The notes under the pieces were generated by a model. The model saw only the letters and a list, made by a program, of their open reading frames with translations, searched no databases and was not told the origin of the DNA. Shown here one piece after another: positions 48,176 to 59,100 of a DNA stretch of 64,000 bases (within the stretch, counting starts at the first letter, position 1; every line of letters starts with the position of its first letter). The translations under genes and the position numbers were made by a program. This DNA is from Paracidovorax wautersii (lineage in GTDB: Bacteria; Pseudomonadota; Gammaproteobacteria; Burkholderiales; Burkholderiaceae_C), in NCBI GenBank assembly GCA_009912175.1, contig WNDQ01000001.1, positions 124,001 through 188,000 of the forward strand, in the 5' to 3' direction.

Positions 48176-48367
48176 GCCCCCGGCGACTTCGAACCGGTTC
48201 TTACTACAAAAGCATTCAAAGCCCCGCCTTCTGACCCGCTCCTGCCGCCAAAACCTCTGAAACGCCCAATCCCTGGCCTATCATCGCTCCCAAACAGGGA
48301 GTCTTGATTTCGAACGGATTGACGATTTTGATGGGGACCGCCGCCACGCCGCGGCCAGGGAGCGAAC

Positions 48368-51300
48368 TTGAGCCTCAGCCACCTTCTGGCCCACGTCCAC
48401 GACGCGGCCGCCAACCTGCCACAGACCGATCCGCAGGCCACGGCGCCCTGCGTGCTGTTTCTCTCGGCCAGCGACGGCCGCAGCCGCGCCCGCACCATCT
48501 CCGCCCGCGCGCCCACCTTTGCCCAGGCCTGGCAGCAGGCCGCGCAAAACCTGCAGCGCGTCTTGCGGCAGGACAAAATCATTCCGCAATGGCTGCGTGT
48601 CGACCGTGTTGATCAAACCCAGGCGGTCGACTGGGGCACATTGCGCGCTGCGCTGGGCAAAACCAAACGCAATTACTTTCCTTACGGCATTGCACTAGAC
48701 GCCGAATTCCGCATGGCCATGCTGGAGCCAGAATTGGGTGCCCACGCCTTGCTCTACGACAGCGCGCAAGACGAGTGCACTCCCAATGCGACCAATCTCA
48801 AAACCTATGGTCAGTGGCGTTTTCGACAGCCATTGAGCTGGCCCGTATCTGACACGGTGCCTGCCTGGCTGTTCACCACGCAAGCGCTCTTCAGTGATGG
48901 GCACAGCTTGCATCTCATCGAACAAACCGGTCCCTACCGCGGCTATCGGAAAGTCCCGGACTGGAACGCCAACGCCGTCCAGGCCCTGGTCGTCACCGGC
49001 ACCGACTATCTGGCGCGCCAGGTCAAAACCTCGGGTGAGTACCACTACGGCTGGTTCCCCTGCTTTGACCGGCCCATTCCCACCTACAACGCCCTGCGCC
49101 ACGCCAGCTCGACCTACGCTCTGCTCGAAGGCTGGGAGTTGACACAGGAGCCCCGGCACCGGCAGGCCATCGAGCGCGCCTTGCGCGATCTCACGCGTCG
49201 GCTGATCCAGCCCGCCACGCTGCCCGACGGCAGCACGGCCGCCTTCCTGGTCGACACAGGCGACGAGATCAAGCTCGGCGGCAACGCCGTGTGCATTCTT
49301 GCGCTGGTGAAATACACCGAGTTGACCGGCGACCAACAATACCTGCCCCTGCTCGAACAACTGGCCCTGGGCATCGTGCACATGCAGCAGCCCGACGGCA
49401 GCTTTGTGCACGTGCTGCATCACCCGGGGCTGGGCCTCAAGGAACAGCAGCGCGCCATCTACTACGACGGCGAGGCCGCCTTCGGGCTGATGCGGCTCTA
49501 TGGGCTCACGCGCGACGCGCGCTGGCTGGCCTGTGTCGAGCGCGCCTTCGAACACTTCATCGCCGCCAAGCACTGGAAGGCCCACGACCACTGGCTGAGC
49601 TACTGCGTCAACGAACTGACGCTGTACCGGCCCGACGAGCGCTACTACCAGTTCGGGCTGGACAACGTCCGCGATCACCTGGACTTCGTGCTTGAGCGCA
49701 TCACCACCTTCCCGACGCTGCTTGAACTCATGATGGCTGCGCGCCAGATGATCGAGCGCCTGCAGGCAGACCCCGAGCACAGCCACCTGCTGGACGATTT
49801 CGATCGGGTCAAGTTCCACCAGGCACTCGAGCACCGGGCCCGCTACCTGCTCAACGGCCACTTCTGGCCCGAGCTGGCGATGTTCTTCAAGAACCCCGCG
49901 CGTATCCGCGGCGGTTTCTTCATCCGCCACCACGCCTTCCGTGTGCGCATCGACGATGTGGAGCACTACCTGTCGGGATATGTGGCGTATTGGAAGTATC
50001 TGACACGCAGCACCAAGCCCAACACACCAGTTCCTAACGTAACCGACGCGAAGCCAGTGGTAACCGCCAGCCACCGCGATACAAAACCACGCGCGCGTGC
50101 CGTGATTGCCTGGGGTGGCGACATCAACCTGGGACGCCGTCAACATTACATGACCCCCAAGCCGGGCCAGCCCCATGCGCTGGCCGGTATACCCGCCCTG
50201 CATGCAGCCGACCTCGCCATCGCCAACCTTGAGTGCGTGGTGGCGACCTCCGGAGAGACCGGTGTGGACAAGGGAGAGCAAGGGCCCTTCTATTACCGAG
50301 CCCGGCCGCAGATGCTGCGCGTCCTGCTCGACGCGGGTATCGGGATGGTGAGTGTGGCCAATAACCACGCTGGCGACTACGGACCGGCCGCGCTGGCCGA
50401 ACAGCGCCAGTGGTTGGATGCGGTGGGTGTGGGTCATGCTGGCTCGGGTGACTGCCTGGACGACGCTTTCCGTCCAGCATTGCACCGGGTGGGCGATCTG
50501 GTGGTGGCCCTATTTGCCATCGACACCACCCAAACACAGTTCGCGGCCACCCCTACGCGAGGAGGTATCGCACACCTCGACATCCGTCAGTCCCAACTCT
50601 GGCATGACCGGATGGCCCCTCTCATCGCCGAAGCACGGCAACGTGCCCACCTGGTGCTGGTGGCCGTCCACGCAGGCAAAAACTGGGCTGAAACGCCCAC
50701 CCGCGACGAGATCGCCGCCGCCCACGCGTTGATCGACGCCGGTGCCGACGCCGTGCTAGGTACATCGGCCCATGTAATACAAGGTATCGAGGTTTACAGG
50801 GAGCGCCCGATCATTCATGACGCGGGCAATCTTCTGTTCGACAGCCAGATCAAATACAGCGGCAGCGGCATGTTCCACCTGCATGTCAGTGCACACGGTG
50901 TCGAACAGGTCGATTTCATTCCTATCCATGTCGGTGTGGGCCACAGCGTGCAATTGCAGGACCAGCATGCCCGGGCGGCCGCGGATAGCTACATGCGTCA
51001 ATGCGCGGCACTGGGCGCCGAACTGAAGGCCACGCCCACAGGCGCGTCGCTCATGCTCTCGCCCCCCGAGCGGCCTGCCCCGGTCCAGGCATGGGCTGGC
51101 CCGCCCCCTCTTTTGCGGCCCGAAGTGCTTGATGCGCCGCCACCGATACAACCCCACTGGACGGTGGTACAGGTCCCGACGGATGCGGCTTTCCAGCCCA
51201 TCGAGCTCGGCCCTCTGCGCCTGCTGGGCATGCGGGTACGACCGGCCGCCAGCATCACCCAGCGGCAGATGATCTGGGTTGAAAGCTTCTGGTGCTGCAC

Positions 51301-51637
51301 ACAACCAGTCGCCGACGACCTGCGGCTCGACATCCGTGCTCAATACGAAAACAGCGCGGCCGCGCCGGCATGGGGAGATGGCATGGACCATGAACCGTGC
51401 GACTGGATGTTGCCGACCTCGCGCTGGCAGCCCGGGGTGATCTATCGGGACGAATTCGGTCTGCGGCCGCCAGCGCTCAAGCATCTGCGCAACGGACGCC
51501 TTCAATGGACTGTCGGTGTCATCGCCGCAGACCGCCGCTACGGTCCCGCGTTGCCCCCGCTGCCATTGATCGAAGTCGCCCTACCTGAACGAACAACGCC
51601 GCAGCCCCTTCCTCATCCACTCAAGACGTCCGCATGA
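48368..51637 (+). CDS. Putative six-hairpin glycosidase domain fused to a CapA/PGA_cap domain
   Basis: 1089 residues from TTG 48368, supported by AGGGAG six bases upstream. There is no signal peptide. Residues about 1-560 look like an (alpha/alpha)6 toroid, with repeated helical segments such as ASSTYALLEGWELTQEPRHR, KLGGNAVCILALVKYTELTG and YYDGEAAFGLMRLYGLTRDA. Residues about 575-835 are a PGA_cap (CapA-like, metallophosphatase fold) domain: VIAWGGDINLGRR, IANLECVVATSGE, MVSVANNHAGDYG, VAVHAGKNW, GTSAHVIQGIEVY. A C-terminal beta-rich region follows. It begins a six-gene operon, and its stop overlaps the next start (ATGA). I assign a role in making or trimming a surface polymer only by analogy. 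Confidence 0.75.
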   Translation: MSLSHLLAHVHDAAANLPQTDPQATAPCVLFLSASDGRSRARTISARAPTFAQAWQQAAQNLQRVLRQDKIIPQWLRVDRVDQTQAVDWGTLRAALGKTKRNYFPYGIALDAEFRMAMLEPELGAHALLYDSAQDECTPNATNLKTYGQWRFRQPLSWPVSDTVPAWLFTTQALFSDGHSLHLIEQTGPYRGYRKVPDWNANAVQALVVTGTDYLARQVKTSGEYHYGWFPCFDRPIPTYNALRHASSTYALLEGWELTQEPRHRQAIERALRDLTRRLIQPATLPDGSTAAFLVDTGDEIKLGGNAVCILALVKYTELTGDQQYLPLLEQLALGIVHMQQPDGSFVHVLHHPGLGLKEQQRAIYYDGEAAFGLMRLYGLTRDARWLACVERAFEHFIAAKHWKAHDHWLSYCVNELTLYRPDERYYQFGLDNVRDHLDFVLERITTFPTLLELMMAARQMIERLQADPEHSHLLDDFDRVKFHQALEHRARYLLNGHFWPELAMFFKNPARIRGGFFIRHHAFRVRIDDVEHYLSGYVAYWKYLTRSTKPNTPVPNVTDAKPVVTASHRDTKPRARAVIAWGGDINLGRRQHYMTPKPGQPHALAGIPALHAADLAIANLECVVATSGETGVDKGEQGPFYYRARPQMLRVLLDAGIGMVSVANNHAGDYGPAALAEQRQWLDAVGVGHAGSGDCLDDAFRPALHRVGDLVVALFAIDTTQTQFAATPTRGGIAHLDIRQSQLWHDRMAPLIAEARQRAHLVLVAVHAGKNWAETPTRDEIAAAHALIDAGADAVLGTSAHVIQGIEVYRERPIIHDAGNLLFDSQIKYSGSGMFHLHVSAHGVEQVDFIPIHVGVGHSVQLQDQHARAAADSYMRQCAALGAELKATPTGASLMLSPPERPAPVQAWAGPPPLLRPEVLDAPPPIQPHWTVVQVPTDAAFQPIELGPLRLLGMRVRPAASITQRQMIWVESFWCCTQPVADDLRLDIRAQYENSAAAPAWGDGMDHEPCDWMLPTSRWQPGVIYRDEFGLRPPALKHLRNGRLQWTVGVIAADRRYGPALPPLPLIEVALPERTTPQPLPHPLKTSA

Positions 51638-52389
51638 CCGTCCATTCACTTCCCTGGAAGCCGGCCCGGGCACGTGTACTGCGCCGACTGGCCGTCATGG
51701 CCACCTTGGTTTGCGGTCTGAGCGCACCAATCGCCCAAGCCCAGCCGGCCCCCTCCCTGCCCGCCTTCGATCTGAACGTCGTCGTGCTTACGCCGCAGGA
51801 GCAAGCCCGGGACCAGACCAGCCTGGGGGCGATGCGACAGCAAATCGAATGGCTCAACCGCGATTTCGTGACGCAGGATGACCGCCATCTGGTCACGTTC
51901 CGACTCAAGTCCATACAGGACTATGCCTCGATCAAGGACTCGCACTGCGAGCTCGTTTCCTTGGCTCAAAAAGCCTACGACGGCGATGCATGGAACCAAG
52001 CCTTCAATGCCTGCAACGACCCCACCGTGCGCGATCCCAAAGCCATCAACGTCTACATCTACGACAGCTACAGCCCACGGCTCGGCTATGCCGATGCCAA
52101 TTCCCACGGACGCTACAACAAGGCCCGACCCTATATCTTTGTTGACTGGGACCGTCTGCGAACACGCGACCAGAGCCCCTTCGAACATGAGCTGGGCCAT
52201 GCCTTCGGCCTCGGCCATGTCTGTGCCGTCGGCGCCGAACGCGGGAGCGACACCAACATCATGGCCAGTGCAGAGTGCGGTAAGGGCAGCGGTGGCCGCC
52301 GCAATATCGGATTCAACCCAGAACAGGCCGACACCATTCTTCGCAGTGCCATACGCATCGCGCGAATGCTCGCGCAGCCGCCACGTTAA
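51634..52389 (+). CDS. Secreted zinc metalloprotease of the metzincin type
   Basis: 251 residues with a signal peptide (LRRLAVMATLVCGLSAPIAQ, cleaved near AQA). The zinc motif HELGHAFGLGH spans residues 185-195, with His185, His189 and His195 as ligands and Glu186 as the base. The Met-turn follows as NIMAS (Met210). This is the metzincin arrangement; I cannot place it in a named family. It starts inside the stop of the CapA-like gene (ATGA), so the two are co-translated. Its substrate could be a protein anchored in or made by the glycan locus. Confidence 0.85.
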   Translation: MTVHSLPWKPARARVLRRLAVMATLVCGLSAPIAQAQPAPSLPAFDLNVVVLTPQEQARDQTSLGAMRQQIEWLNRDFVTQDDRHLVTFRLKSIQDYASIKDSHCELVSLAQKAYDGDAWNQAFNACNDPTVRDPKAINVYIYDSYSPRLGYADANSHGRYNKARPYIFVDWDRLRTRDQSPFEHELGHAFGLGHVCAVGAERGSDTNIMASAECGKGSGGRRNIGFNPEQADTILRSAIRIARMLAQPPR

Positions 52390-52465
52390 GTCGCACACCG
52401 GCTTCCAAACAACACCTCGGCCCCGGCCCTGATCCAAGCCAGCGGGAGCCATCGCAAGGATGACC

Positions 52466-54253
52466 ATGGAGCAATTGATCACCCGCCTTCGAACACTGTC
52501 GCAACAGGTGACCGATGATGACGATCTCATCCGTCGACTGCTGGAGGAGGGTCTGCCCGAAATCGCATGCGTGGTAGCCCGCAACCGCCTGGAACACGAA
52601 ACACCTTCCGACCCGCAGCACTGGCAGGCTTACCATGCGCTGTTGCTACAGTGTGGCAACACTGCGGCCGCGGAGCGCCTGCGCGAAGCCGTGTCTCCCG
52701 AACAATTCACCGAACGCACCGGACTGGGTTTCTGGAGTGAGTCGATCCGTGCGGCGCAAAACCATGCCGATCGCCTCGCACACACGCTGGACCGCTTGCT
52801 CGCGATCGATCCCTTCCGCTTGGCTGTGCGTGTGTCGACCGTACGGCGTCGCCACCCTCAGCACTACGAGGCTCTGGCCGGTGTGCTGCAAGCCCGCGCC
52901 GCTCGCCTACCTGCGCCGGCGGGCCATGCAGCCATCGCCCTGAAGTTGGCACTGCAGGAGATCGACCCTCATGACGAGAGCCATGACGAGGCACTGCTCG
53001 ACCTGTTCCAGCGCGCGGCCATCGGTGACGTGACAGCGCTGCTACGCAGCGCCTTCTCCCGAAACGTCCTGTTGTTTCAACGGTGGGTGCAGCGACTCAA
53101 CCAGACACCGGAACGGCTGGTATCTATCAGTCCACGAGGCATCTACCGCCTGCTCGCCGTTGCCTACATCCACCTCGACGATGACGCTTACCGTTCCCTG
53201 GCCGAACACATCGTGCACCTGCACGACGCCCAGCCTCCCGGCCAGCTCGATACACCGCTGACCGCCACAGTCGCTATCGCCCAGCGTTTTCTTGCCCGGC
53301 GCCAGACACCAGCGCCTGCTGGCCCATTTCCGATTGGCACGCGAGGCGACCGCCCCCTGCGTATCGCTATCGCGGTTTCCGGGCAATTGCGAGCGTATCG
53401 CGAGGTGTTTCCAAGCTGGCGCCACCTGGGACTGGATGGACACCAAGTCGACTATTACGTCCACACCTGGAAAAGCATCGGCTGGCGCTTTCCCAACGCC
53501 ATTACCGGCAATGCAGTCGACCGCGTGTTTGGGCATGCACCATTTGTGCAGGCCTACATCAAGGCTGGTCTGCTCTACGGTATCGAGGCCATGCGCAAGG
53601 CGTACCCCACCTTCCTGGGATCACTCGAACGCAGCGCAGCCGATGTGACCGTGGCCGATGTCCAGGCCGTCTACGGTTCTGACGCACGCGTGTACATCGA
53701 GGCAGAAGATCCCACGCGCTTTCCCGATGACCCCAAAAACCAGCACAAGATGTTCTACAAGATCGACCAAGCCCAGCGCATGGTCGAAGAATCGGGCGTC
53801 TCCTATGACCTTGTGATCCGCCTGCGCGGTGACCGCTCATTTCGTCCGCCGAGAACACCGCCCGACTACCAGGCAATGTGGCACCAGAGCCAGGCCGATC
53901 AGGTCCTGTTCGGAGAACCAGCTCGCATCGCCAACGAGCTTTATGTGGACGACCAGTTCGCCATCGGCACGCCCGAGGTGATGCGAGCCTACGCCAGCAC
54001 GGCACAGTTGCAACAGCAGGCCGTCCAGGAGCGCTGGCATGGCTTCACTCCTCAGCTTGCGCCACACCTCACCTTGGCCTACGCCCTGTTTTTCCAGGGC
54101 ATCCGTGTGCGCGAGGCGCTGGGTGTGCGCCCCGGCCCCATCCGGGGCCAGCACCTCATGAGCCGACAGGAGATTCACGAGGCGCTGCTGCACGACATGC
54201 CTGGCGGCCCCCGCAGCGAGATGGACCGGCTTTTCCTGGAGGCCGTTGCATGA
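52466..54253 (+). CDS. Glycosyltransferase-like protein with helical N-terminal domain (paralogue 1)
   Basis: About 595 residues. I choose ATG 52466 because AAGGA lies five bases upstream of it and too close to ATG 52460. Residues about 1-290 are helical and repeat-like. From about residue 298 comes RIAIAVSGQLRAYREVFPSW, then YYVHTWKSIGW, NQHKMFYKIDQAQRMVEESG, YDLVIRLRGDRSF and ELYVDDQFAIGTPEVMRAYA. This order (SGQLR start, HTW, RxR-D, DD) resembles uncharacterised GT-A-like transferases. I do not recognise a named family. It overlaps the next gene by ATGA. Confidence 0.75.
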   Translation: MEQLITRLRTLSQQVTDDDDLIRRLLEEGLPEIACVVARNRLEHETPSDPQHWQAYHALLLQCGNTAAAERLREAVSPEQFTERTGLGFWSESIRAAQNHADRLAHTLDRLLAIDPFRLAVRVSTVRRRHPQHYEALAGVLQARAARLPAPAGHAAIALKLALQEIDPHDESHDEALLDLFQRAAIGDVTALLRSAFSRNVLLFQRWVQRLNQTPERLVSISPRGIYRLLAVAYIHLDDDAYRSLAEHIVHLHDAQPPGQLDTPLTATVAIAQRFLARRQTPAPAGPFPIGTRGDRPLRIAIAVSGQLRAYREVFPSWRHLGLDGHQVDYYVHTWKSIGWRFPNAITGNAVDRVFGHAPFVQAYIKAGLLYGIEAMRKAYPTFLGSLERSAADVTVADVQAVYGSDARVYIEAEDPTRFPDDPKNQHKMFYKIDQAQRMVEESGVSYDLVIRLRGDRSFRPPRTPPDYQAMWHQSQADQVLFGEPARIANELYVDDQFAIGTPEVMRAYASTAQLQQQAVQERWHGFTPQLAPHLTLAYALFFQGIRVREALGVRPGPIRGQHLMSRQEIHEALLHDMPGGPRSEMDRLFLEAVA

Positions 54254-56055
54254 CCGTGGTCCGGCCAGCCAACCCCGCTTTGGACCTGGACACCCTGCAA
54301 GCGTTGCTCGCGCATTGCGTGGATGCACACGGGCGGCTCGATGTGGCCCGATTGCTGCAGCAGGGCCTGCCCGAAATCGCCCTGCTGGTGACCCGCCAGT
54401 CCATGGCCCGGCAACAGCCCCCCAACCCACCCGACTGGCTGGCCCATTACCGCCTGCTGCAGCAGGTCACCGATCATGGTGCGGCGCTCCGGCTGTGGGC
54501 TGATATGGACGTCGAGGCCACCCAGAAGGCCACGGGCCTGGACTACTGGAACGAGGCCGTCTGGACCGCCGCGCTGCACACCGAGCGGCTCACCCAGCTC
54601 GTGCAGGAACTCATGGACCGCGACAGCTGGCGGTTCGCGGTGCGGCTCGCGCAGTTCCGCAACGGCAACGGCGGGCTTTTTTTTCCGCTGGCCAACGTCA
54701 TCGCCGACGCGCTCCAGCGCAAGCCCCTGCCGCCCAATGGCCTGAGTGCGCTGGCCTGGAACCTGGTGCTGCAGCGCTGCGATCCGGCCGTGCCGACCTG
54801 GTTCGAACCGATGCAGCGCATGCTGGAGCGGCGCAAGCTGGTCGACATCAGCAGCCTCTTGCGCACGTCCCTGCCCGCCAATGCGCCGCTGTTCCGCCAG
54901 TTCGCGCTGCGCATGCTGGCGCAGGACCCGGCCGTCCATCCGCTCGGCCCACGCGCCACCTTCCATTTCCTGGTGCTGTCCTACGCCCTGCTGGAGCCCC
55001 AGGTCTACCGCGCGGTCTGTGCACGCGTGCTGACATGGGCCGGCGCCGTCCCGACGATCGACCGCCAGACGCCCGAGGGCGCCAGTGTTCTGGTGGCACG
55101 CAACCACCTGCAGCGCTATCGCCTGGCGCAATCGCAATCGGCCCAACCGTCGCCCGGCCGCCTGCGCATTGCGCTGTGTGTCTCGGGCCAGTTGCGCGGC
55201 TATCAGGACGCCTTCAAGACCTGGGAACACCTGCAATTGCAGGACCACGACGTGCACATCCACGTGCACACCTGGCGCAGCGTAGGGCTGTCGGTTCCAG
55301 TGGCGTCTTCGCGCAAGGGCGTGGACCGCGCGTTCACCCACCCCCCGTTCGTGCGCGCCTTCATCCGGGCGGGCCAGCGGTACGGCGATGAGGCCCTGAA
55401 CCGGGCCTATCCGAAGTTCATGGCCGCGCTGGCCTGGGGCGCCACCGTCACGCCCGACGACCTGCGCGCCGTCTATGGCCCCGACACGCACGTCGGCATC
55501 GAGGAGGACGACCTGCCCGAGTTCGCAGGCGACACCACGCACCAGCACAAGATGTTCCACAAGATCCTCATGGCCCACCGGCTGGCGGCGCAATCACCCC
55601 AGCCCTACGACCTGATGATCCGCATCCGCCCCGATCTGTCGCTGCTGCCGCCCGAACAGCCCATCGACTGGCACGCGATCTACAGGGCATGCGTTGACAA
55701 CCAGACGATCTACACCGGGCCTCTGCATCTGGTCAACAACCTGTTCGTCGACGACCGGATCGCCATCGGCTCGCCCGCGTCCATGCTGCGCTATGCCGAA
55801 ACCCGCCGCGCCCAGAAACAGGCCGACGAGGAGCGCTGGTACGGCTTTCCGCGCGGCCTGCAATGGCACCGGTCGCTCGCCTATTCCTTGTTCTTCCAGG
55901 GGCTGCAGGCCGTCGATCTGCCGGGCATCCTGCCCGGCCCGCTGGTTGGCGCGCGCACCTGGGACCGCGACCAGATCCGCGAGGCCCTGGCGGCCGACCT
56001 GCCCCACGGCCCGGTCACCGACATGGACCGGCTGCTGACCCAGGCCCTGCAATGA
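54250..56055 (+). CDS. Glycosyltransferase-like protein with helical N-terminal domain (paralogue 2)
   Basis: 601 residues from ATG 54250, overlapping the previous stop. It is a full-length paralogue of the preceding protein. The shared N-terminal helices include LLQQGLPEIALLVTRQSMAR against LLEEGLPEIACVVARNRLEH. The C-terminal domain shows RIALCVSGQLRGYQDAFKTW, IHVHTWRSVG, HQHKMFHKILMAHRL, YDLMIRIRPDLSLL and NLFVDDRIAIGSPASMLRYA. The two differ enough that they likely have separate acceptors or sugars. Function is inferred only from fold-like motifs and operon context. Confidence 0.75.
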   Translation: MTVVRPANPALDLDTLQALLAHCVDAHGRLDVARLLQQGLPEIALLVTRQSMARQQPPNPPDWLAHYRLLQQVTDHGAALRLWADMDVEATQKATGLDYWNEAVWTAALHTERLTQLVQELMDRDSWRFAVRLAQFRNGNGGLFFPLANVIADALQRKPLPPNGLSALAWNLVLQRCDPAVPTWFEPMQRMLERRKLVDISSLLRTSLPANAPLFRQFALRMLAQDPAVHPLGPRATFHFLVLSYALLEPQVYRAVCARVLTWAGAVPTIDRQTPEGASVLVARNHLQRYRLAQSQSAQPSPGRLRIALCVSGQLRGYQDAFKTWEHLQLQDHDVHIHVHTWRSVGLSVPVASSRKGVDRAFTHPPFVRAFIRAGQRYGDEALNRAYPKFMAALAWGATVTPDDLRAVYGPDTHVGIEEDDLPEFAGDTTHQHKMFHKILMAHRLAAQSPQPYDLMIRIRPDLSLLPPEQPIDWHAIYRACVDNQTIYTGPLHLVNNLFVDDRIAIGSPASMLRYAETRRAQKQADEERWYGFPRGLQWHRSLAYSLFFQGLQAVDLPGILPGPLVGARTWDRDQIREALAADLPHGPVTDMDRLLTQALQ

Positions 56056-56086
56056 CCCCATTCCCCTTCAACGAGAGCACCTTCCT

Positions 56087-56461
56087 ATGAAACGCCTGAT
56101 CGTCGATCTCGACCACACCCTGTGCGTCGCCCGCGACCGGGACTACGCCAACGCCGAGCCCCGCGCGGACGTCATCGCGCAACTGCGCACCTACCACGCC
56201 CAGGGTTTCGAGATCGCCATCCACACCAGCCGCAACGTGCGCACCTACGCGGGCAACGTGGGCAAGATCAATGCGCACACGCTGCCCGTCATCCTCGACT
56301 GGCTGGCGCGCCACGACGTGCCCTACGACGAGATCCACGTCGGCAAGCCCTGGTGCGGCGACGACGGTTTCTACATCGACGACCGGGCCGTGCGCCCCTC
56401 GGAATTCGTGCGCCACAGCTACGAGGAAATCGTGCAACTTCTGGAGCGAGAACAATCATGA
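56087..56461 (+). CDS. Small HAD-superfamily phosphatase, capsule-biosynthesis type
   Basis: 124 residues. HAD motif I is DLDHT with nucleophile Asp7 and acid/base Asp9. Motif II is in IAIHTSRNVRTY, the lysine is probably in VGKPW, and motif IV is in FYIDDRAVRPSEF. There is no cap domain, as in small HADs found in capsule loci that remove phosphate from sugar or polyol phosphates. It shares an ATGA overlap with the following gene, so it probably acts in the same pathway, perhaps dephosphorylating a precursor before or after activation. Confidence 0.82.
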   Translation: MKRLIVDLDHTLCVARDRDYANAEPRADVIAQLRTYHAQGFEIAIHTSRNVRTYAGNVGKINAHTLPVILDWLARHDVPYDEIHVGKPWCGDDGFYIDDRAVRPSEFVRHSYEEIVQLLEREQS

Positions 56462-58674
56462 TCCTCCTGACCTCCGCCGCCTACGTCGACCCGGAACTGC
56501 AATCCGAGTTCGGGCGCCTGCCGCCCGCCTTTCTGCCCGTCGGAAACCAGCGGCTGTTTCAGCGGCAAGCCGACATGCTGCGCACCACCTTCCCCGGCGA
56601 GCCCATCTACCTGTCCCTGCCCGAGAGCTACACGATCGCGCGGCGCGACGCCGACACGCTGGCGCGGCTGGACGTCCAGGTGGTCAAGGTCCCCGACGGC
56701 CTGAGCCTGGCGGCCTCGGTGCTGTACGCCATCAACCGCATCGGCGACTACAGCGCGGGCGTGCGCATCCTGCACGGCGACACGCTGGTCTCGGGCTTCG
56801 ACACCGCCTGGGACTGCGTGGCCATGGCCCAGTCCTCGGACGACTACAACTGGTATGTCGAGAGCCACAGCGGGGTCGTTCCCAGCATCTGGTGCGGCTA
56901 CTTCGCCTTCGGCTCCATCGACCTGCTCACCAAGTGCCTCGCCGGCGCGCACAACGCCTTTGAAAAAGCCGTGAACGACTACGACGCCGCGCAAGCGCTG
57001 CTGCGCATCCGGCCCAGCCATTGGCTGGACTTCGGCCACGTCAACACCTTCTACCGCTCGCGCGCGCGCATGACCACGCAGCGCGTCTTCAACGACTTGC
57101 GCATCCAGAACCACCGTGTCCACAAGACAGGCACACCACCCGCCAAGATCCAGGCCGAAGCGCTCTGGTTCGACGCGCTGCCGCCCACCTTGCGTATCTA
57201 TGTTCCCCAACTGCTGGCGCGCAACATCGAAGACGGCAAGGCCAGCTACGAGCTGGAATACCTGTGCCTGGCGCCGCTCAACGAGCTGTATGTGCACGGG
57301 CTGAATTCACCGGGCTTCTGGCACCGCCTGTTCCGGCATCTGGCGGACTGGTTCCAGGCCAGCCAGCAGGCCATGGACTGGCGCCAGGTGGACATCGAGT
57401 CGGTGCGGGCCGACGTCAACGGCATGCTGGCCGACAAGACGCGCGAGCGGCTGGGCCAGTACCTGGCATCCGTGGGCCTGAACGATGCCGGCCCGACCTC
57501 ACTCAACGGTGCACCCCTGCCGCCCCTGGCCACCATCGTCGAGCGCTGCCTGGCCGAGGCCGCGAAAGTGCCGGTGGTGCTGGGCGTGCTGCACGGCGAC
57601 CTGTGCTTCAGCAACATCCTGTTCGACACGCGCGCCGACCAGATCAAGCTGATCGACCCGCGCGGCCTGAACTACAAGGGCGAACAGCGTCTGTACGGCG
57701 ACCTGCGCTACGACCTGGCCAAGCTCACGCACTCGGTGATCGGGCTCTACGACTACCTGATCGCCGACGCGTTCTCCATCGACGACGGCGCGGGCCTGGA
57801 CTTTGCGCTGCAGATCCATGCCGACGACAACGTCGAGGTCATCGGCACGCACTTCCTGGACCAGCGCATGCTGGACGGCATCACGCCCCGCCAGATCCTG
57901 CCCATCACCGTCCTGCTGTTTCTGTCGATGCTCCCGCTGCACAGCGACGCCCCCCGGCGCCAGCGCGCCATGCTGGCCAATGCGCTGCGCCTCTACCGCC
58001 TGCCGCTGCATGGCCAGACGGTTTTTCATCAGATGCTGAACTCGTTCGCGCACTACTTCGAGGACGACCTGTTCCTCTTCATCGTCCGCCAGGACCATGC
58101 CGCGCGCGACTTCGTCGCCGACGAGGCGACGGCGCTGGGCATCGCGCGTTTCGAGATCGTGGAGATCGCAGGCGACACCCTCGGCCAGGCCGACACGGTC
58201 GCGCGCGGCCTGCACCTGCACGAAGGCGCGGTCGACGAGCCGCTCTACATCTTCAACATCGACACGCTCCGCCCACGCTTTCGCAAGTCGGACAAGGCCA
58301 TCGGCAGCCAGGGCTATCTGGAGGTCTTCGAGGCCGAGGGCGAGCACTGGTCCTTTGTCGAGCCCGGACCCGGCCACACGGTCCTGCGCACGACGGAGAA
58401 GGAACGCATCTCCAACCTCTGCAGCGACGGCCTGTACCAGTTCGCATCGCGCGTCGTGTTCGAGCAGGCGTTCGAGCACCAGGTGACGAACCACCTGCTC
58501 ACGCGCAACGAGTACTACATCGCGCCCGCCTACAACGCGTTGATCGCGCGCGGCGACCGCATCCTGTACGAAAAGATCGACCGCAACGACGTGCTGTTCT
58601 GCGGCACGCCTGACGAATACAACGCGCTGCTGGCCATGCCCGTGGACGAATTCGCCCGGCGCGTGGCTGCCTGA
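56458..58674 (+). CDS. Putative three-domain nucleotidyltransferase / choline kinase-like / nucleotidyltransferase protein
   Basis: 738 residues from ATG 56458; the track ORF starts upstream in the HAD gene. Residues about 1-240 resemble a divergent nucleotidyltransferase (LPPAFLPVGNQRLFQRQADM; ILHGDTLVSG near 104). Residues about 270-500 are an aminoglycoside phosphotransferase/choline kinase-like domain with catalytic loop HGDLCFSNILFD (379-390) and metal site LIDPRG. From about 520 a second nucleotidyltransferase-like domain follows (LFLFIVRQDHAARDF; LGQADTVARG; LYIFNIDTLRP). Both transferase domains lack the classical G-x-G-x-R nucleotide loop. It could phosphorylate and activate a small alcohol or sugar for transfer to the glycan. 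This is inference. Confidence 0.7.
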   Translation: MILLTSAAYVDPELQSEFGRLPPAFLPVGNQRLFQRQADMLRTTFPGEPIYLSLPESYTIARRDADTLARLDVQVVKVPDGLSLAASVLYAINRIGDYSAGVRILHGDTLVSGFDTAWDCVAMAQSSDDYNWYVESHSGVVPSIWCGYFAFGSIDLLTKCLAGAHNAFEKAVNDYDAAQALLRIRPSHWLDFGHVNTFYRSRARMTTQRVFNDLRIQNHRVHKTGTPPAKIQAEALWFDALPPTLRIYVPQLLARNIEDGKASYELEYLCLAPLNELYVHGLNSPGFWHRLFRHLADWFQASQQAMDWRQVDIESVRADVNGMLADKTRERLGQYLASVGLNDAGPTSLNGAPLPPLATIVERCLAEAAKVPVVLGVLHGDLCFSNILFDTRADQIKLIDPRGLNYKGEQRLYGDLRYDLAKLTHSVIGLYDYLIADAFSIDDGAGLDFALQIHADDNVEVIGTHFLDQRMLDGITPRQILPITVLLFLSMLPLHSDAPRRQRAMLANALRLYRLPLHGQTVFHQMLNSFAHYFEDDLFLFIVRQDHAARDFVADEATALGIARFEIVEIAGDTLGQADTVARGLHLHEGAVDEPLYIFNIDTLRPRFRKSDKAIGSQGYLEVFEAEGEHWSFVEPGPGHTVLRTTEKERISNLCSDGLYQFASRVVFEQAFEHQVTNHLLTRNEYYIAPAYNALIARGDRILYEKIDRNDVLFCGTPDEYNALLAMPVDEFARRVAA

Positions 58675-58680
58675 GTCCGG

Positions 58681-59100
58681 TCAGGACACGGCGGGCGGCT
58701 TCGGGATAGGCCGGGGCCGGCCCTGCTCGTCGATGGCGACGTAGGTCAGTTGAGCCTCGGTCACCTTGATGACGCGGCCCTGGTCGTGCATGCGCTCGGC
58801 GAAGACCTCGATACGCACGGTGATGGAGGTGCGGCCGATGCGTTCGACATGGCCGTAGAAGGACAGCAGGTCGCCCACGCGCACGGGTTGCTTGAAGACG
58901 AACTCGTTAACCGCAACGGTGGCAAAACGCCCACCGGTGTAGCGCGCCGGAATGACCGAGCCGGCCAGATCGACCTGGGCCATGACCCAGCCGCCAAAGA
59001 TGTCCCCATTGGCGTTGCAGTCGCCCGGCATGGGGATGACCTTGAGCACCAGCTCCTTGTCGGTGGGCAGTTCGGTGAGCATGTCGTGGGTGTAGACCAT
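58681..59100 (-). CDS. Acyl-CoA thioesterase, YciA-like hotdog family
   Basis: 139 residues; the start is ATG 59100 or the Met six codons later. The family signature CNANGDIFGGWVMAQVDLAG carries the catalytic Asp on the hotdog helix, and FVFKQPVRVGDLLSFYGHVE follows. YciA-type enzymes hydrolyse medium and long acyl-CoAs in the cytoplasm. It is divergent from an acyl-CoA-binding protein gene, a sensible functional pairing, and converges on the glycan operon with six bases between stops. Confidence 0.94.
   Translation of the reverse strand: MVYTHDMLTELPTDKELVLKVIPMPGDCNANGDIFGGWVMAQVDLAGSVIPARYTGGRFATVAVNEFVFKQPVRVGDLLSFYGHVERIGRTSITVRIEVFAERMHDQGRVIKVTEAQLTYVAIDEQGRPRPIPKPPAVS

Follow-up and report, generated by a model that had tools for sequence, protein, structure and literature searches.

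The MupP-AmgK-MurU pathway removes the phosphate from a sugar 6-phosphate, phosphorylates the sugar at C1 and then uridylylates it, by means of a HAD phosphatase, an APH-fold anomeric sugar kinase and a uridylyltransferase (PMC5371407). The LicA-LicC pair comprises a choline kinase and a CTP:phosphocholine cytidylyltransferase. EcbF/BcbF capsule-locus cassettes, which carry a phosphatase of the TIGR01689 family, lie in plasmid capsule loci of E. coli, Citrobacter and Phaeobacter. The structure 4evw, a nucleoside-diphosphate-sugar pyrophosphorylase from Vibrio cholerae RC9, comes from structural genomics, and a literature search found no published function for it. The 64,000-nucleotide stretch of Paracidovorax wautersii DNA analysed here (the window) contains a 738-residue open reading frame that joins a kinase and two nucleotidyltransferase-like domains in one chain. 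An earlier note had read this frame as a possible single-chain enzyme that phosphorylates and then activates its substrate. With a probability of roughly 0.75, the frame is instead a recent gene fusion: a small deletion joined two neighbouring genes of a conserved surface-glycan cassette and removed the NTP-binding loop of the last domain. The apparent three-in-one enzyme thus probably arose by accident, not long ago, and its last domain is probably disabled.

The single frame is open throughout its 738 codons, and its ATG and the stop of the HAD gene before it share a 4-bp overlap (Table 1). The AlphaFold2 model of the protein, built from a 47-row alignment, has a mean pLDDT of 93.4 and a pTM of 0.79, and is matched by Foldseek to 4evw, to other nucleotidyltransferases including MurU and LicC (1jyk), and to APH kinases. 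By phmmer, residues 512-728 match 4evw with an E-value of 4.5e-50; Pfam gives NTP_transf_3 at 18.2 bits, below the cut-off. The phmmer and AlphaFold2/Foldseek results together therefore bear out the arrangement proposed in the earlier note, a nucleotidyltransferase (NT1), a kinase and a second nucleotidyltransferase (NT2). Structure models and Foldseek searches, by which the outer domains might have proved to be other folds, place both in the nucleotidyltransferase fold. The motifs picked out in the note are all present: PVGN and HGDT in the N-terminal domain (HGDTL at 106-110), HGDLCFSNIL at 379-388, LIDPRG at 398-403, LGQADTVARG at 575-584 and FNIDTLRP at 599-606.

Table 1. Coordinates of the fused gene, its domains and its upstream neighbours in the window.
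Feature	Position	Strand	Evidence or remark
'SGQLRGY' protein 1	52460..54253	+	Tandem paralogue of protein 2; homologue at locus L050 fused to NT2
'SGQLRGY' protein 2, putative transferase	54250..56055	+	Recurrent cassette neighbour
HAD phosphatase, EcbF/BcbF-type, overlapping partner gene of the cassette	56087..56461	+	TIGR01689, 198.1 bits, above the curated cut-off of 162
Fused gene: NT1-like domain, APH-like kinase and loop-less NT2, 738 aa	56458..58674	+	Open frame, motifs, AlphaFold2 model
NT1, nucleotidyltransferase-fold domain with family-specific loop	56458..57087	+	Structure model, alignment of relatives
APH-like small-molecule kinase domain	57088..57993	+	Conserved motifs, Foldseek APH matches
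Deletion junction: kinase tail, stop, spacer and first 22 NT2 residues missing	57993..57994	+	DNA alignment to relatives
NT2 remnant, 4evw-like nucleotidyltransferase	57994..58671	+	phmmer, Foldseek, family profile

The kinase domain carries, besides HGDLCFSNIL and LIDPRG, a KTG...K....E motif near residues 222-234. In 22 aligned sequences, the H-G-D-x(4)-N catalytic loop, the downstream Asp and the N-lobe Lys and Glu are invariant or nearly so. Detection by Pfam APH (PF01636) is weak, at 18.9 bits under a gathering cut-off of 23.2, and APH structures are present among the Foldseek matches of the kinase-containing model. The domain is accordingly an APH-like kinase in general; nothing in it is specific to choline kinase, the closer affiliation suggested before. 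Records of phages of Enterococcus, Synechococcus and others also match the fused protein (40 in all), and the ten listed match mainly the kinase part, at approximately 24-29% identity.

In the relatives, drawn from a sample of about 1,500 genomes together with plasmid records, the full architecture is spread over two adjacent genes, NTK (~520 aa, NT1 plus kinase) and NT2 (~240 aa), mostly in NTK-NT2 order. The two are separate in 19 of the 19 relatives with the full pair, and the one-frame fusion is seen in the window only. Across the 18 loci measured, the gap between them runs from -4 to +12 nt. Among these loci are those of the closest relative, G875 (61% identity in NTK, 59% in NT2), and of Variovorax; a Variovorax paradoxus plasmid relative shows about 60% identity. 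On a Caballeronia plasmid (L082) NTK and NT2 are split and the genes overlap, and a more distant pair in Paenibacillus has the reversed order. At most loci, as in the window, a small EcbF/BcbF-type HAD gene stands directly upstream of NTK. This cassette of HAD phosphatase, NTK and NT2 is found in Burkholderiales, other Gammaproteobacteria (in the GTDB sense), alphaproteobacteria and Paenibacillus, and in the relatives it belongs to clusters for LPS or capsule that also carry WavE, WaaA, O-antigen ligase, Wzx, ABC exporters, and Stealth or TagF-like genes. The E. coli ST131 plasmid pMB9366_2 (L083) bears a capsule-type cluster with ABC export, Stealth, a TagF-like gene and the HAD-NTK-NT2 cassette.

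Aligned with the DNA of G875 (locus L074), the window is collinear around the junction except at a single clean gap, exactly 104 bp long. The missing segment comprises the last NTK residues and their stop codon, an 8-nt spacer and NT2 residues 1-22 (MFVIPMVGKSRRFTEAGYALPK), and in G875 a TAC trinucleotide stands at both of its ends. NT2 in G875 is offset by two nucleotides from the NTK frame; 104 mod 3 = 2 cancels this offset, so that NTK and NT2 share one frame in the window. In comparison with Variovorax (L081), about 87 bp are missing, and both Variovorax genes lie in one frame with a single stop between them. An assembly or sequencing error at the junction, concealing two separate genes in the strain itself, would agree with the occurrence of the fusion in one genome only and with the draft state of that assembly (102 contigs). 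Large direct repeats at the junction were sought as a cause of misassembly, and only a repeat of about 3 bp was found; a clean 104-bp block whose ends offer no repeat prone to assembly collapse, together with a joined frame that is open, makes such an error very unlikely.

In the AlphaFold2 model, the kinase helix passes directly into the remaining NT2. The remnant lacks beta-1, the P-M-x-G-x-S-x-R-F loop and the P-K lysine, and keeps NIDT and the downstream motifs. In sugar nucleotidyltransferases, this loop and the lysine hold the triphosphate. The NTP-binding loop, P-M-x-G-x-[SG]-x-R-F ... P-K, is present in 19/19 aligned relatives, with T as its first residue in a few distant members, and absent in the window only; eleven residues (P M G S R F A G Y P K) that are conserved in at least 80% of relatives are gone with it. 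The rest of the domain scores 282.7 bits against the NT2 family profile, and Foldseek superposes it on 4evw with 44% identity, an rmsd of 1.6 and a TM-score of 0.83 on the target. The alignment with 4evw begins at residue 22 of that structure, and the window is without the preceding N-terminal part. A profile search of the strain's own genome yields no second NT2, the only other match reaching 16.4 bits over 51 positions. Since the loop is intact in all 19 relatives and no second NT2 is detected, its loss is a strain-specific deletion. Judged from the residues removed, the loss would probably abolish catalysis by NT2; the fused chain should still phosphorylate and should not complete the activation.

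Accelerated decay of the remnant, tested by dN, third-position bias and conserved columns, is not seen. Pairwise dN to G875 is 0.31 for NT2 and for NTK, third-position bias is alike in both, the departures of NT2 from conserved columns are 5 in the window against 3 in the relative, and its lineage-specific changes are 34 against 27. With NT2 evolving at no higher rate than NTK, the loss looks recent; being undecayed, the remnant may also still do something, and the same picture would be expected from a recent deletion as from a retained non-catalytic role. In the second case, the loop-less NT2 would be a pseudo-enzyme with a structural or regulatory role beside the kinase in a functional fusion, with activation left to NT1 or another enzyme. 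GMPPA, the inactive partner of GMPPB, follows a comparable logic. The confident three-domain model, together with a remnant that stays in frame, retains NIDT among other motifs and evolves as NTK does, is consistent with such a partnership. The fusion is nevertheless restricted to one genome, all 19 split relatives retain the loop, and a recent deletion accounts equally well for the absence of decay; a functional pseudo-enzyme is therefore unlikely, and the inactivating deletion is preferred.

The first domain departs from the standard pattern in a different manner. Where G-x-G-x-R...K is expected, NT1 has the loop S6...G19..P22....P27, and HGDTL and WLDFGHVN (from 189) are kept. A separate model of the first 210 residues has a pLDDT of 82.5, weaker (~50) over residues 11-30, and all 50 listed Foldseek matches of this model are nucleotidyltransferases or pyrophosphorylases; Pfam NTP_transferase scores 17.1 bits, under its cut-off of 21.2. 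A search of PDB sequences with the NT1 profile gave mostly spurious matches to designed repeat proteins, and fold comparison was therefore used. In all relatives, the G-x-G-x-R...K loop is absent from NT1 and a different, conserved loop takes its place, with S6, G19, P22, P27, L33 and Q37 invariant and a typical context of TSAAYVxxELxxEFGxLPPxFLPxGNxRL. The missing motif of NT1 is a family trait. The note had observed correctly that both outer domains lack G-x-G-x-R and had cautioned that they might be altered or inactive; the caution was sound, the loop having been replaced in NT1 of every relative and deleted from NT2 in this strain only.

HGDT and W-x-D-F-G of NT1, which presumably occupy the places of the fold's two metal-binding aspartates by analogy with RmlA-type enzymes, are kept in 12 of 15 relatives. 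The remaining lineage (L049, L052 and L076) is a clearer pseudo-nucleotidyltransferase, without the GDT and DFG aspartates and with kinase and NT2 intact. As the kinase is kept in these three, NT1 catalysis is not essential to the cassette, and the conserved replacement loop, taken with the loss of GDT and DFG, indicates that NT1 is constrained and probably no standard nucleotidyltransferase. NT1 is probably a modified nucleotidyltransferase fold that assists or regulates the kinase without standard nucleotidyl transfer. Some kinases of the same family at other loci have N-termini with no match to NT1. A working trifunctional enzyme, with NT1 and/or NT2 active through altered loops and one chain both phosphorylating and activating, could draw on the nucleotidyltransferase fold of both outer domains, on the two presumed metal aspartates in HGDT and WLDFG, and on the conservation of the replacement loop. 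It is very unlikely, however, given an NT2 devoid of beta-1, loop and PK lysine and three relatives that retain the kinase without GDT and DFG in NT1. The single-chain economy envisaged earlier is likewise unsupported, as the genes are separate in every full-pair relative and the deletion removed the NTP-binding loop of NT2. On a wider proposal, NT1 is a distinct, widely conserved class of the fold, marked by a signature loop of its own and dedicated to an APH-like kinase of glycan clusters, which it would control or feed; in this strain the loop-less NT2 would have become a second pseudo-nucleotidyltransferase, leaving the kinase flanked by two non-catalytic domains. This proposal is tentative and rather unlikely.

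The fused gene closes a series of six co-oriented genes (48368-58674) with a GC content of 0.63-0.67, against approximately 0.70 in the flanks. In a genus-mate (G001), the same flanking genes enclose only about 5.3 kb, partly of different content, so the site is a variable glycan locus; the lower-GC six-gene block at 48300-58700 is a hypervariable glycan locus. Its first gene (48368-51637, +) encodes a protein of 1089 aa whose last part is a PGA_cap (CapA-like) domain region. At the same site in the genus-mate, the N-terminal half of this protein is kept and a group-1 glycosyltransferase stands in place of PGA_cap, a domain swap. The second gene (51634-52389, +) encodes a metallopeptidase-like protein (HELGHAFGLGH); the cassettes of G875 and Variovorax have a different protein nearby, with HELFHLYQYG. 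The two SGQLRGY proteins carry the motifs S-G-Q-[LM]-R and D-x-x-x-R-x-R-[PG]-D, and Pfam gives no convincing match for the family, the PDB no meaningful one. A natural 803-aa fusion of NT2, with its loop intact, to an SGQLRGY protein occurs at L050:9522-11933. Recurring beside the cassette and fused to NT2 in that one case, the SGQLRGY proteins are candidate users of the cassette product.

The LPS and capsule setting, together with fold classes like those of MupP-AmgK-MurU, suggests to us that the cassette supplies a surface glycan with an NDP-activated sugar or polyol. In the intact form, HAD phosphatase, NTK and NT2 would act in sequence: the phosphatase would strip the phosphate from a sugar or polyol, the APH-like kinase would place a new phosphate on the position destined for activation, and NT2 would couple this phosphate to a nucleotide. 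The resulting NDP-activated donor would serve a transferase, for which the SGQLRGY proteins are possible candidates. By analogy, phosphatase, kinase and nucleotidyl transfer leading to an NDP-activated surface-glycan precursor is the most likely ancestral pathway. In this strain, the fused chain would keep the phosphorylation and lose the completion of activation. We infer the reaction order and the substrate class, as well as the recency of the fusion.

In conclusion, what looked like an attractive self-contained phosphorylate-and-activate enzyme is corrected, at base resolution, to an inactivating deletion fusion, probably a half-broken member of a recurrent cassette. The HAD phosphatase, NT1-kinase and NT2 cassette itself is identified as recurrent in LPS and capsule clusters, and a literature search found no characterised homologue and no described product. 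NT1 and its conserved non-standard loop clearly merit biochemical study.

Among known systems, LicA-LicC shares the kinase-then-nucleotidyltransferase logic, and LicC is one of the structural matches. The comparison with LicA/LicC drawn in the note gains support from structure prediction and from the conserved phosphatase, kinase and nucleotidyltransferase cassette of the relatives. Unlike LicA-LicC, the cassette has the kinase motif DPRG, nothing supports choline as a substrate, and no LicD gene is recognised beside it. MupP-AmgK-MurU matches the cassette in its three fold classes and in the plausible order of reactions, and MurU structures are among the best structural matches of the outer nucleotidyltransferase domains. 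The likeness is one of fold and gene order; that system consists of separate proteins without an NT1 domain and acts in peptidoglycan recycling. The EcbF/BcbF capsule-locus cassettes share with the window the order HAD, NTK and NT2, and differ from it in that their genes are split, the NT2 loop is intact and they lie inside larger export and polymerase clusters.
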